The translations under genes and the position numbers were made by a program. From Pseudoruegeria sp. HB172150 (GTDB taxonomy: Bacteria > Pseudomonadota > Alphaproteobacteria > Rhodobacterales > Rhodobacteraceae), in contig NZ_JAATNG010000001.1 in the NCBI RefSeq assembly GCF_013184805.1, positions 1,736,001 to 1,800,000 on the forward strand: a stretch of DNA of 64,000 nt, read 5' to 3'. This document shows, piece after piece, positions 21,321-26,198 of the stretch (position 1 is its first letter; every line of letters starts with the position of its first letter). Below the pieces are notes generated by a model. The model did not search any database. It saw nothing but the letters and a program-made list of their open reading frames with translations, and was not told the DNA's origin.

Positions 21321-22364
21321 ATGCGGGCGGCCTTTCTTACGGAGTACCGAAAGCCGCTGGAGATCGCGGACGCCCCGGACCCTGACTGCCCCGAGGATGG
21401 CGTGGTGCTGGATGTGCTGGCCTGCGGCGTCTGCCGGTCGGACTGGCACGCGTGGACCGGGACCGATCCCGACATCGTGCTGCCGCATATCCCCGGACAT
21501 GAGTATTGCGGAGTTGTGGTTGAAACCGGCGCGGGCGTGACGCGCTGGACTGTCGGCGACCGTGTCATCGCGCCGTTCATCCTGGCCTGCGGGAGCTGCC
21601 CGGATTGCCAGTCCGGGCACCAGACCATCTGTGCGAAACAGGTCGTTCCGGGGTTCACGGTGGCGGGCGCGTTTGCCGAGCGGATCGCGGTACGCCATGC
21701 GGATGTGAACCTGACCCGGCTGCCCGAGACGATGGACCCGGCGCTGGCGGCAGCGCTGGGGTGCCGCGTGACGACGGCGTGGCATGCGCTGACCGGGCGC
21801 GCCGCCCTGAAGGCGGGCGAGTGGCTGGCAGTCTGGGGCACCGGCGGCGTGGGGTTGTCGGCGATGCTGCTGGGGCGGGCGCTGGGTGCGCGGGTGGCGG
21901 TGGTCGACGTGGTCGGCGAGAAGCTGGATTACGCGCAGGATCTTGGCGCGGATGCCGCGATCGACGCGAGCCGGGGCGATCCGGTGGCGCATCTGCGGGA
22001 GGTGACGGGCGGCGGCGCGCATGTCGCCGTCGAGGCGCTAGGAATCACGGAAACGTCGCGCAACGCATTGCTGTCGCTCAGGAAACTCGGGCGGATGGTG
22101 CAGGTCGGTATGCCCGCGGGCGAGCATGTAACGATGCCTTTGCCGATGGACGCGGTCTATTCGGGGCAGCTGGCGCTTTATGGTACGCGCGGCATGCCCG
22201 CGCACCGTTATCCCAGCCTGATGTCGCTGATCGATGGCGGGCATGTGGACCTGACCCCGTTGATCGCGCGCCGCGTCAAACTGAGCGACGCCAGCGCCGA
22301 ACTTGCCGCCTTCGACCGCCCGGCGCCGCCGGGTGTCGCCGTCATCACCGACTTCGCCGGATAA
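21321..22364 (+). CDS. Zinc-dependent alcohol dehydrogenase, MDR family
   Basis: Medium-chain dehydrogenase, 347 aa. Catalytic zinc ligands are seen in CGVCRSDWH and GHEYCG; the structural zinc lobe has four cysteines in CGSCPDCQSGHQTIC; the NAD(P) loop is GTGGVGLS. Substrate is unknown. The gene starts 10 bp after purS and ends 12 bp before purQ with a GGAGA site before purQ, so it is embedded in the purine operon although it has no known purine role. Confidence 0.93.
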   Translation: MRAAFLTEYRKPLEIADAPDPDCPEDGVVLDVLACGVCRSDWHAWTGTDPDIVLPHIPGHEYCGVVVETGAGVTRWTVGDRVIAPFILACGSCPDCQSGHQTICAKQVVPGFTVAGAFAERIAVRHADVNLTRLPETMDPALAAALGCRVTTAWHALTGRAALKAGEWLAVWGTGGVGLSAMLLGRALGARVAVVDVVGEKLDYAQDLGADAAIDASRGDPVAHLREVTGGGAHVAVEALGITETSRNALLSLRKLGRMVQVGMPAGEHVTMPLPMDAVYSGQLALYGTRGMPAHRYPSLMSLIDGGHVDLTPLIARRVKLSDASAELAAFDRPAPPGVAVITDFAG

Positions 22365-22376
22365 AGGAGAGATCCC

Positions 22377-23045
22377 ATGAAAGCCGCCGTCATCGTCTAC
22401 CCGGGTTCCAACTGCGACAGGGACCTTGCCGTCGCCTTCGAGCGTGCAGGCGCCGAGGTGCAGATGGTCTGGCACAAGGAGACGGATCTGCCGGCGGGGC
22501 TCGACATCGTCGGGGTGCCGGGCGGGTTTTCCTATGGGGATTACCTGCGCTGCGGGGCCATCGCCGCGCAGTCGCCGATCTCGAAGGCGTTGATCGACTT
22601 TGTCCATGCGGGTGGCCATGCCATCGGGATCTGCAACGGCTTTCAGGTGCTGACGGAGACGGGGCTTCTGCCCGGCGCACTGATGCGTAACGCAGGATTG
22701 AAGTTCATCTGCAAGAGCGTCGGGCTGCGGGTGGCGACGGCGGACAGCGTGTTCACACGGGGGCTGTCGGAGGGCGACGTGATCCACCTGCCGGTGGCAC
22801 ATCATGACGGCAACTACATCGTGGCACCGGATGAGCTGAAAACCCTTCAGGATCAGGATCGTATCGCCTTTACCTACACCGACAACCCGAACGGGTCGGT
22901 GGCGGATATCGCCGGTGTTCTGTCCGAGAACCGGCGTGTGCTGGGGCTGATGCCGCACCCGGAACGGGCGGTCGACGACAGTCACGGCGGCAGCGACGGG
23001 ACGGCGATCTTCCGCGCAATTGCGGGCCTGACGGAGCCTGCCTGA
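22377..23045 (+). CDS. purQ: Phosphoribosylformylglycinamidine synthase subunit PurQ
   Basis: Glutaminase subunit of FGAM synthase, supplying ammonia to PurL. The 222-aa class I amidotransferase has the nucleophile cysteine in AIGICNGFQVL and the histidine/glutamate pair in MPHPERAVDD. PurL itself is not in the window. An AAGGAGA site precedes the ATG. Confidence 0.97.
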   Translation: MKAAVIVYPGSNCDRDLAVAFERAGAEVQMVWHKETDLPAGLDIVGVPGGFSYGDYLRCGAIAAQSPISKALIDFVHAGGHAIGICNGFQVLTETGLLPGALMRNAGLKFICKSVGLRVATADSVFTRGLSEGDVIHLPVAHHDGNYIVAPDELKTLQDQDRIAFTYTDNPNGSVADIAGVLSENRRVLGLMPHPERAVDDSHGGSDGTAIFRAIAGLTEPA

Positions 23046-23090
23046 CCGCCTTGGCTTGAGCGCGGCGACGCCGCGCTCTAGATTGTTGCG

Positions 23091-24851
23091 ATGAGTGAGA
23101 CCACCGATCCGCGCAAGGAACCGGTCCGCAGTGCGCTTTCGTGGCGTGCGCGGATGTCTCTGCTCGTCTTCATTGTCGCGGCGGTCGCGGTGGTCTGGGT
23201 GACCAACCAACTGCTGACTGAACGCTACACCGTTTCCACCAAGAACCGTGCCGAAGTTCGCCAGACGCTGTATGCAGGGAACCTGCTGAGCGAACTGCAG
23301 CGGAACTCCGTCGTGCCGCTCTTGCTGGCGCGCGACCCGGTGCTGATCGGGGCGCTGAACTCCGCCGACTTCAGCCAGACATCGCAGCGCCTGATCGGCG
23401 TGAAGGACGAAATCGGTGCGGCATCGCTGATCCTTTTAGATGCCAGCGGCCGGACGGTGGCTGCGTCGGACCGGGCCCTGATTGGCTCCTCGCACCGGAC
23501 GGAGCCGTATTTCATCTCTGCTTTGCGATCCAACGAGACCGTGTTCAACGCCTACCGGACCGATAACGGGGCGATGCGGTTCGTCTATTCCCGCCGGATC
23601 GAGGCGGCCGGCGAACTGATCGGCGTGATCGTGGTCGAGGTCGACCTGCGGAAGTTCGAGCAGCAGTGGTCGACGATCTCGGATGCCGTCGTCGTTCTGG
23701 ACAGCGAAGGACAGATCATCCTGTCGACCGAGCCGAGGTGGCGCGGGCTGACGGAAGACGAGGCGCTGAAGCTGCGGTCCGCGCCGTCGGCCATCGAACG
23801 GGCGATCCGCGCGACCGCGGACTGGGCCGCGCTGCCGACGGAGGCGTTCTACCGCGGCTCGGCGCTAATGCGGCTGGAGAACCGGATTCCGTTCCGCGGC
23901 TGGCGGATGGTCACATACACGACCTATTCCAGCGTGCGCGAACGGGTGAACGGCGTGCTTGCGCTGGAGATCATGTTCTTCGCGATCCTGCTGGCGGGCG
24001 GTTTCTATCTGACCAGCCGCCGGGCGCTGGCGCGGTCGATCTTTTTCCAGCGCGAGTCGGCAGAGCTTCGCCAGCTGAACGATACGTTGCAGCGGGAAAT
24101 CGCCGAACGGGAACGGGTGGAAAAGAACCTCGAGGTGGCCGAACAGACCATCGCCCAAAGCTCGAAACTTGCCGCCCTCGGCGAGATGTCGGCCAGCGTC
24201 AGCCACGAACTGAACCAGCCTCTGGCGGCGATGAAGACCTACCTCGCCGGTGCCAAGCTGCTGCTGCAGCGGCGTCGGCCGGAAGAGGCGCTGACCAGCT
24301 TCCAGCGGGTGGACGATCTGATCGAGCGCATGGGCGCGATCACGCGGCAGCTGAAGAGCTTTGCCCGAAAGGGTGGCGATGCCCTGGAGCCGCTGGATGC
24401 AAGGGATTGTATTTCTTCGGCTTTGTCGATGATGGAGCCGCAGCTGAAAGAGCGGAAGGTGAAGATCACCCGCTCGCTGCCTGCCGAACCCGTCATGATC
24501 ATGGCAGATCGCATCCGGCTGGAGCAGGTTCTGATCAATCTGCTGCGCAACGCCGTGGACGCGACCAAGGAGGTCGAAGAGCCGGCAATCGAGATTCTCT
24601 TGACCGTCGGGCAGACCGCTGCCCTGATAGTCAGGGACAACGGCCCGGGGATCGAAGATCTCGAATCGCTCTTCGAGCCGTTCTATACGACGAAAGCGCC
24701 AGGCGATGGGGTGGGCCTTGGCCTTGCGATTTCCTCGGGCATCGTGAAGGACCTCGGCGGCAGGCTATATGCCCGGAACGGGCGTGCCGGCGGGGCCGTG
24801 TTCGAGGTTCGCCTGCCCCTGATAGACACGGATATCAAAGCTGCCGAGTGA
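23091..24851 (+). CDS. Sensor histidine kinase, DctB-like
   Basis: Membrane kinase of the C4-dicarboxylate sensor type, 586 aa. Two membrane helices (about 22-42 and 288-308) flank a double-PDC/Cache periplasmic sensor. A coiled coil (about 320-355) leads to the HisKA domain with H372 in SHELNQPLAA, then an ATPase domain with N487 (INLLRNAVDA), DNGPGI and GDGVGLGLAIS. It is followed after 15 bp by its response regulator. C4-dicarboxylates are the family ligand; no dctP/Q/M transporter is present here, so the signal is inferred. Confidence 0.9.
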   Translation: MSETTDPRKEPVRSALSWRARMSLLVFIVAAVAVVWVTNQLLTERYTVSTKNRAEVRQTLYAGNLLSELQRNSVVPLLLARDPVLIGALNSADFSQTSQRLIGVKDEIGAASLILLDASGRTVAASDRALIGSSHRTEPYFISALRSNETVFNAYRTDNGAMRFVYSRRIEAAGELIGVIVVEVDLRKFEQQWSTISDAVVVLDSEGQIILSTEPRWRGLTEDEALKLRSAPSAIERAIRATADWAALPTEAFYRGSALMRLENRIPFRGWRMVTYTTYSSVRERVNGVLALEIMFFAILLAGGFYLTSRRALARSIFFQRESAELRQLNDTLQREIAERERVEKNLEVAEQTIAQSSKLAALGEMSASVSHELNQPLAAMKTYLAGAKLLLQRRRPEEALTSFQRVDDLIERMGAITRQLKSFARKGGDALEPLDARDCISSALSMMEPQLKERKVKITRSLPAEPVMIMADRIRLEQVLINLLRNAVDATKEVEEPAIEILLTVGQTAALIVRDNGPGIEDLESLFEPFYTTKAPGDGVGLGLAISSGIVKDLGGRLYARNGRAGGAVFEVRLPLIDTDIKAAE

Positions 24852-24866
24852 GGTAGAAAGAGACTA

Positions 24867-26198
24867 ATGACGCAGGCAATGAAAATCGCCATCATCGATG
24901 ACGAACAGGATATGCGGCAATCGATCAGCCAGTGGCTGGCCCTGTCCGGGTTCGACACCGAAACCTTCGCCAGTGCCGAAGACGCGCTGAAGACCCTGGG
25001 AACCGATTATCCCGGCGCGGTCGTCAGCGACATCAAGATGCCCGGCATGGACGGGATGCAGTTCCTGAAGAAGCTGATGAGCGTGGATTCGGCGCTGCCC
25101 GTGATCATGATCACCGGCCACGGTGACGTGCCGATGGCGGTCGAGGCGATGCGCGTGGGCGCGTTCGACTTTCTGGAAAAGCCGTTCAACCCGGACCGGA
25201 TGACGGAGCTTGCGAAGAAGGCGACGCAGCGCCGGCGTCTGACGCTGGACAGCCGCGCGCTGCGCAAGGAGTTGTCGGACGGCTCGACGCTGATGAAGAA
25301 GCTGATCGGCGCGTCGCCGGTCATGGAGCGTCTGCGCGAGGACATCCTCGATCTGGGGCAGGCCGAAGGGCATGTGCTGATCGACGGCGAAACCGGGACC
25401 GGCAAGACGCTGGTGGCGCATGCGCTGCACGCGGTTGGCGCCAAGGCCGGGAAGAAATTCGTTCTGCTTTCCTGCGCCGGACAGGACAGCGATGCGCTCG
25501 CAGCGCGTCTTTTCGGGCCGATCGAGGAAGGCGGCGGATTGCCGGCGCTGGAAGAGGCGCGGAACGGCACGCTGGTGCTGGAAGATATCGAGTCGCTGCC
25601 GCAGGACCTTCAGGCCCGGCTGCTGAGCTGGATGAACGAGCAGGGGACGCCGGCCGAGACCCGGATCGTCGCGATCTCGAACCTTCAGGAGCAGGGCAAG
25701 ACCTGCGAGGACGTGCTGCGGCCGGACCTGTATTTCCGCCTCGCCGCGATGAAGATCACTCTGCCGCCGCTTCGCCAGCGGGGCGAGGACATCCTGATGC
25801 TGTTCACCCATTTCTCCGAACAGTTCGCCGAGGAATACGGCTGCGATGCGCCGAAGGTGTCGGCGCAGGAAGCCGCACAGCTGCTGCAGGCGCCCTGGCC
25901 CGGCAACATCCGCCAGCTGATCAACGTGGCTGAGCGCGCAGTGCTGCAGAACCGCCGCGGCACCGGCACCATCGCGTCGCTGCTGATGGCGGAGAGCGAC
26001 GAGACGCAGCCGGTCATGACCACCGAGGGCAAGCCGCTGAAGGAATACGTCGAGGCGTTCGAGCGGATGCTGATCGACAACACGATGCGGCGCCACAAGG
26101 GCTCTATCGTCGCGGTCATGGATGAACTGTGCCTGCCACGCCGGACGCTGAACGAGAAGATGGCCAAGTATGGGCTGCAGCGGTCGGATTATCTTTAG
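24867..26198 (+). CDS. DctD-like AAA+ response regulator lacking GAFTGA
   Basis: NtrC-class regulator, 443 aa, partner of the upstream kinase. The receiver domain has acidic residues D11/D12, phospho-acceptor D55 (VVSDIKMPG) and K105. The AAA+ domain has Walker A GETGTGKT (174-181) and a Walker B-like LVLEDIE, but the stretch near 215-230 reads FGPIEEGGGLPALEE where sigma54 activators have the GAFTGA loop. A Fis-type helix-turn-helix lies at the end (LPRRTLNEKMAKYGL). Without GAFTGA it is unlikely to activate sigma54 RNA polymerase; Rhodobacter capsulatus NtrC is a known GAFTGA-less activator of sigma70 promoters. Confidence 0.92.
   Translation: MTQAMKIAIIDDEQDMRQSISQWLALSGFDTETFASAEDALKTLGTDYPGAVVSDIKMPGMDGMQFLKKLMSVDSALPVIMITGHGDVPMAVEAMRVGAFDFLEKPFNPDRMTELAKKATQRRRLTLDSRALRKELSDGSTLMKKLIGASPVMERLREDILDLGQAEGHVLIDGETGTGKTLVAHALHAVGAKAGKKFVLLSCAGQDSDALAARLFGPIEEGGGLPALEEARNGTLVLEDIESLPQDLQARLLSWMNEQGTPAETRIVAISNLQEQGKTCEDVLRPDLYFRLAAMKITLPPLRQRGEDILMLFTHFSEQFAEEYGCDAPKVSAQEAAQLLQAPWPGNIRQLINVAERAVLQNRRGTGTIASLLMAESDETQPVMTTEGKPLKEYVEAFERMLIDNTMRRHKGSIVAVMDELCLPRRTLNEKMAKYGLQRSDYL

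Follow-up and report, generated by a model that had tools for sequence, protein, structure and literature searches.

The window analysed here is a stretch of 64,000 nucleotides of the Pseudoruegeria sp. HB172150 genome. It carries a two-component gene pair consisting of a histidine kinase, DctB1, and, 15 bp behind it, an NtrC-type response regulator, DctD1. The features of the locus are as follows (positions in the window, strand, description, source).

22377..23045, +, purQ (a name that we assume), directly upstream of the DctB1/DctD1 pair; ORF, gene order in relatives
23056..23084, +, sigma70-like promoter TTGAGC-N17-TAGATT 5' of DctB1; pattern search
23091..24851, +, DctB1, partner histidine kinase with dCache_1, HisKA and HATPase; ORF, Pfam
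23277..23750, +, DctB1 sensor domain (dCache_1, aa 63-220); Pfam, structure matches
24867..26198, +, DctD1, NtrC-type response regulator without GAFTGA, 443 aa, ATG start; ORF
24885..25211, +, DctD1 receiver domain (aa 7-115), phospho-acceptor D55; Pfam Response_reg
25386..25409, +, DctD1 Walker A, GETGTGKT (aa 174-181); translated sequence
25512..25556, +, DctD1 L1 region FGPIEEGGGLPALEE (aa 216-230), where GAFTGA is expected; translation, alignment
25572..25589, +, DctD1 Walker B, altered, with the acids E239-D240 in place of D-E; alignment
25716..25742, +, DctD1 arginine-finger region LRPDLYFRL (R285, R291; presumably the fingers); clade alignment
25896..25919, +, DctD1 region WPGNIRQL (R349), which we take to be sensor II; clade alignment
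26049..26171, +, DctD1 Fis-type HTH (HTH_8, aa 395-435); Pfam

The Pfam domains of DctD1 follow in the order Response_reg (7-115), Sigma54_activat (146-297), AAA_lid_14 and HTH_8 (395-435). The AAA+ sigma54-interaction domain (PF00158) is clearly present, with 85.5 bits against a cut-off of 20.2. The other features of a sigma54-dependent bEBP are missing: there is no GAFTGA, the Walker B acids are not D-E, and the alignment has Ser instead of Asn at the switch position. Thus the first-pass annotation, which described an intact receiver with D55, GETGTGKT and a Fis-type HTH in a protein devoid of GAFTGA, is borne out by the ORF, Pfam and the translation. The swapped Walker B acids (E239-D240) are an addition to that description. 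The HTH segment PRRTLNEKMAKY is the same in 12 of 12 aligned proteins. None of the 25 listed NCBIfam models reached its cut-off on DctD1.

The name DctD seems reasonable, since the receiver taken alone has its best match among solved structures in Sinorhizobium meliloti DctD (1qkk, 4.5e-41; the next is FixJ, 3.3e-29) and the sensor part of the kinase matches DctB structures. The sensor has three matches among solved sequences (3by9, 2zbb and 3e4o), two of which are named DctB; the third, 3by9, is titled only “Sensor protein” and is presumably Vibrio DctB. The pair therefore combines the DctD-like receiver and the DctB-like sensor of the DctB/DctD family.

The pair is not linked to a C4-dicarboxylate transporter. 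Its neighbours are purQ and, farther along, rne. The order purQ-kinase-regulator is kept in all 14 named loci of relatives, nine of which have an rne match downstream of the pair within the sequence stretch examined. In the window a gene that we take to be a zinc-type alcohol dehydrogenase (21321-22364) lies between the presumed purS and purQ; L073 is the only one of the 14 named loci with a match at this position.

The sigma70-like promoter ends six bases before the ATG of DctB1, so the DctB1 message is possibly leaderless. A similar arrangement was found 5' of the kinase in 12 of 15 loci and in at most 3% of the shuffles of each locus, with a pattern composed after inspection of the same loci. 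Over the -35 element and spacer lies a GC-rich inverted repeat whose arms are 9 bp long (23056-23091). Such repeats around the pair vary from genome to genome and could be terminators of purQ. A k-mer search around the pair in relatives for a conserved DctD1 site found none.

Sigma54 and GAFTGA in the genome and in the family

The genome assembly that contains the window (G000) comprises 5.06 Mb in 21 contigs and is 99.64% complete. The first-pass annotation had proposed checking whether this genome has rpoN. None was found: neither PF04552 (Sigma54_DBD) nor PF00309 (Sigma54_AID) had a match in it, and each model was positive in 4 of 14 control genomes. The RpoN of a congener (G152) also had no match there, in a search that had no positive control. 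As the assembly is a 21-contig draft, the absence of rpoN is not wholly certain.

PF00158 finds four NtrC-type regulators in this genome, namely DctD1, a second DctD and two proteins presumed to be NtrC and NtrX, along with two Clp-type ATPases. The latter matches (on contigs C19 and C16) were rejected as NtrC-type regulators and are read as ClpA and ClpB, which is our assumption. GAFTGA occurs in none of the four regulators. The NtrX-like and NtrC-like genes of locus L009 (5285-6802 and 9066-10430, both on the minus strand) both lack it. No match in the genome, on either strand, was found for the E-x-GAFTGA DNA pattern or for a looser [G/N/S/D]AFTGA pattern that covers the Gly and Ser codons in part. 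The looser pattern matched 215 of 295 genomes and gave many control matches, and only its zero in the window's genome is used here.

Among 295 genomes of the family, 92 had rpoN over the cut-off; leaving out a short match in G075 gives 91, a few of them partial. Of these 91 genomes, 46 contained the E-x-GAFTGA pattern, versus 6 of the 204 others (Fisher p 7e-22, with genomes treated as unrelated). Two of the six exceptions are 73-76% complete, and in the other four the motif is preceded by H, I, F or L. These four matches may be due to chance, because the reversed control pattern matches 7 of the 295 genomes. The pattern is missing from 45 of the 91 rpoN-positive genomes. According to excerpts of Francke et al. 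2011 (PMC3162934), NAFTGA occurs in Paracoccus denitrificans and Ruegeria pomeroyi; variants of this type could explain part of the 45. Half of the pattern matches in rpoN-positive genomes (34 of 68) lie within 50 kb of rpoN, and so rpoN and a GAFTGA-bearing activator may travel as a module. In the congener, rpoN and a GAFTGA-bearing activator are about 7 kb apart (L169, G152:C1:264000-283000).

Annotation can easily mistake DctD1-type proteins for sigma54 activators, yet rpoN was not found in 204 of the 295 family genomes sampled. Many false sigma54-activator calls in databases are mentioned in the same excerpts (PMC3162934).

Loss of the loop and fate of the ATPase residues

DctD1 is widely conserved: its best match has E <= 1e-100 in 269 of the 295 family genomes, and the matches listed (at least 150) are 79-100% identical. 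We fetched 60 family relatives, and the loop region was readable in 59 of them. GAFTGA or GSFTGA was found in none of the 59; two distant relatives read GAFPGA and GAFAGA. Among 14 loci of the class from other families, nine have GAFTGA or GSFTGA and five do not (two of the five have GAFPGA), so the motif was lost outside the family as well. In one relative (L058, G049:C1:1372291-1373618) DctD1 matched as two overlapping pieces and may be frameshifted. This row and the other fragments (L043, L064, L068) were removed before the tree was built and residues were counted.

In a quick tree, which was built without the loop columns and has long branches (OWN_DctD2 among them), DctD1 falls into a clade of 65 rows (SH-aLRT 100). 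Its sister is a GAFTGA-bearing protein, and the joint group has SH-aLRT 83. As none of the 65 rows keeps GAFTGA, its loss in the clade is evidently old. A frameshift or misreading hiding the motif in DctD1, which the first-pass annotation had allowed for, is excluded, since the loss is common to relatives, including clade members 41-94% identical to the window protein, and neither of the two DNA patterns matches the genome on either strand. Loss of rpoN in the window strain is likewise ruled out as the cause: rpoN-positive genomes account for 17 of the 65 rows, and the DctD1 of the congener, one of the 17, is 94% identical to the window protein and has the same kind of loop. The earlier suggestion that control by this pair is not RpoN-dependent gains strong support from the missing rpoN and from the clade-wide lack of GAFTGA.

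The 17 rows would also suit a DctD1 that, wherever rpoN exists, still cooperates with sigma54 but uses some surface besides GAFTGA to do so. Excerpts of PMC12421884 report that HTH mutants of Caulobacter NtrC, a protein devoid of GAFTGA, affect sigma54 genes, which counts against our main reading too. Nevertheless, we regard this explanation as highly improbable: a protein 94% identical to that of the rpoN-positive congener is kept in a genome with no detectable rpoN, and the hydrolysis residues are changed.

The residues of the AAA+ domain have had different fates. The phospho-acceptor D55 and R349 are each kept in 65 of 65 clade rows. The Walker A lysine (K180) is present in 62 rows, including all 62 that are at least 50% identical, and is replaced by R in the three divergent rows L061, L063 and L065. 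R285 and R291 are each found in 62 rows and missing in three. Nucleotide binding is thus not universal in the clade, given the arginine in place of lysine and the rows lacking R285 or R291. At the first Walker B acid, 61 rows have E, three D and one K; at the second, 53 have D, seven N, three E, one G and one H. The switch Asn is kept in 13 of 65 rows. For nine relatives picked for having GAFTGA, Walker B D and E and the switch N are present in 9 of 9. For PspF, excerpts of PMC7175178 give a proposal in which the Walker B glutamate and the switch asparagine link L1 movement to the gamma phosphate. Rows L060 and L062, which form the first branch of the clade, have no loop and still have D-E and Asn; the loop may therefore have been lost before the hydrolysis residues changed.

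In the DctD1 clade, then, residues for ATP binding and inter-subunit contact are mostly kept and those for hydrolysis are changed, which is new here. The E-D Walker B may still hydrolyse ATP. An AF2 model of DctD1 (pLDDT 87, pTM 0.55) keeps the bEBP AAA+ fold; the closest solved structures for this fold are NtrC4, NtrX, NtrC1 and PspF, and the comparison with PspF (2vii) gives Z 24.8 and rmsd 2.2 A over 223 aligned residues.

The same residues bear on a TyrR-like alternative, in which DctD1 would serve at sigma70 promoters chiefly for repression or as a structural DNA-binding protein, with the AAA+ domain as a passive oligomerisation scaffold. The strong conservation of the receiver and HTH, the changed Walker B and switch Asn and the loss of the Walker A lysine from three divergent rows all agree with it. 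In addition, Caulobacter NtrC also represses, probably in competition with CtrA (PMC10274813, in part). On the other hand, the Walker A lysine and each of the two arginines are kept in 62 of 65 rows, which is more than one would expect a passive scaffold to need; in contrast, the second DctD has mostly lost the lysine (see below). We consider this a minority possibility, perhaps one chance in a handful.

The second DctB/DctD pair and dicarboxylate transport

The genome contains a second DctB/DctD pair (L010, 5451-8521, minus strand), which adjoins dctPQ and shares its strand with dctP and dctQ. Its regulator, DctD2, lacks GAFTGA as well as the Walker A lysine (GEPGTGTS). We compared 41 regions 5' of dctP, of which 40 were fetched and one belongs to the window's genome; DctD2 was alignable in 35, below the score cut in two and absent from four. 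Of the 35 DctD2 rows, one has GAFTGA (G004, rpoN-positive), two have GAFPGA and 32 have neither. The Walker A lysine is lost in 31 of these 32 (31 of 35 overall), and D-E is kept in 25 of the 31. DctD1 and DctD2 thus appear to have lost mostly opposite halves of the ATPase, DctD2 losing the lysine and mostly keeping D-E and DctD1 doing the reverse.

A palindrome, TGTGCGGNNNNCCGCACA, is located upstream of dctP, with at most two mismatches, in 35 of the 41 regions, all of which have a DctD2 match, and is often present in two copies 32-33 bp apart. The form TGTGYGNNNNNNCRCACA occurs once in the window's genome, where the copy reads TGTGCGATTTTCCGCACA (G000:C1:2201366-2201383, in L010 upstream of dctP). 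The palindrome is absent from the four regions without DctD2, although three of the genomes have DctD1 (G006, G045 and, in a divergent form, G015), and also from two regions with divergent GAFPGA-type DctD2. Since it is missing without DctD2 even where DctD1 is present, it most likely belongs to DctD2.

These observations call for a correction of the first-pass assignment of DctB1/DctD1 to C4-dicarboxylate control. A DctB-like sensor and a DctD-like receiver are what would be expected if the pair regulated dctPQM in this genome and had simply switched to sigma70. Yet dctPQ has its own linked pair, and the palindrome upstream of dctP tracks that pair and has a single occurrence in the genome, which makes such a role for DctB1/DctD1 quite unlikely.

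A scan for -24/-12 sites 5' of dctP gave best scores no higher than the shuffle maximum, except in G093 (15 versus 13); the score of 14 in G004 equals its shuffle maximum and is a hint only. Anchored comparison across the dctP regions revealed no clear conserved promoter downstream of the palindrome. Judging by gene numbers, we guess that SPO2630 of Ruegeria pomeroyi is the DctD2 orthologue. Mutants in this TRAP regulatory gene and in the nearby dctM and dctQ had lower co-culture fitness, as reported in excerpts of PMC10041152.

Proposed mechanism and comparison with known systems

We think it probable that DctB1/DctD1 is a DctB/DctD-derived system freed from sigma54, in which DctD1 acts as an ATP-bound oligomer at promoters of the sigma70 family. 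DctB1 would sense a periplasmic ligand, probably a small carboxylate as its sensor domain suggests, and phosphorylate D55. DctD1 would then assemble through its AAA+ domain in the ATP-bound state, with little or no hydrolysis, and bind DNA with the Fis-type HTH. Its effect at the promoter would come from ordinary contacts or from competition, and not from remodelling of sigma54 polymerase driven by ATP. The ATP-bound or nucleotide-gated oligomer is suggested by the largely kept binding residues and the changed hydrolysis residues, and the proposed action at sigma70 promoters is deduced from the absence of sigma54. The earlier alternatives, sigma70 promoters or an AAA+ domain for oligomerisation only, would both fit the motif pattern. 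Against our reading we count the arginines in L061, L063 and L065, the retained D-E and Asn of L060 and L062, and the dependence of Caulobacter NtrC on residues of Walker A as well as Walker B (PMC10274813, in part).

A more far-reaching version is speculative, and we give it a rather low probability. In it, the departures of the two DctD paralogues from sigma54 were apparently separate events that took opposite courses, and DctD1 would now be central to regulation throughout the family. Encoded in a purine-gene neighbourhood and equipped with an AAA+ ring that would bind ATP but hydrolyse little of it, DctD1 would integrate carboxylate sensing with the energy state, gated by ATP, at housekeeping promoters. 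Between them, the two paralogues offer a naturally occurring gradation from GAFTGA through GAFPGA to no motif, and their ATPases fared in opposite ways; this makes it testable how a bEBP becomes a sigma70 regulator and what the AAA+ domain is later for.

GAFTGA-less bEBPs at sigma70 promoters are already known, including the NtrC of Rhodobacterales, and Francke et al. (PMC3162934, in part) noted Jannaschia as a genome without sigma54 and with an altered EBP. Among open-licence papers we found no study of this DctD clade.

Sinorhizobium meliloti DctB/DctD is the best receiver-only match, accounts for two of the three sensor matches and has the same domain order. The window pair differs from it in the lack of GAFTGA, the changed Walker B, the absence of a detectable rpoN and of an adjoining C4-dicarboxylate transporter. 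Brucella NtrX (5m7n, 5m7o, 5m7p) is the top PDB sequence match to DctD1 (8.5e-61) and has a long fold match to its model (Z 28.8-29.4, rmsd 8.7-15.4 A, 356-394 residues); it represents a separate subfamily, and the window's genome has an NtrX-like protein of its own. The NtrC proteins of Rhodobacter capsulatus and Caulobacter lack GAFTGA and act at sigma70 promoters, and for R. capsulatus the reported requirement is for ATP binding rather than for its hydrolysis (excerpts of PMC10274813). DctD1 shares with them the deleted loop and the kept Walker A; their receiver and nucleotide binding are reported to be used. It differs in belonging to another subfamily and having another sensor. Finally, TyrR, DhaR and HupR (sigma70) and the GAFTGA-defective VpsR belong, like DctD1, to the bEBP homologues whose contact with sigma54 has been lost (Francke et al. 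2011, PMC3162934, in part); they respond to other inputs, whereas DctD1 represents a clade spread across one family.
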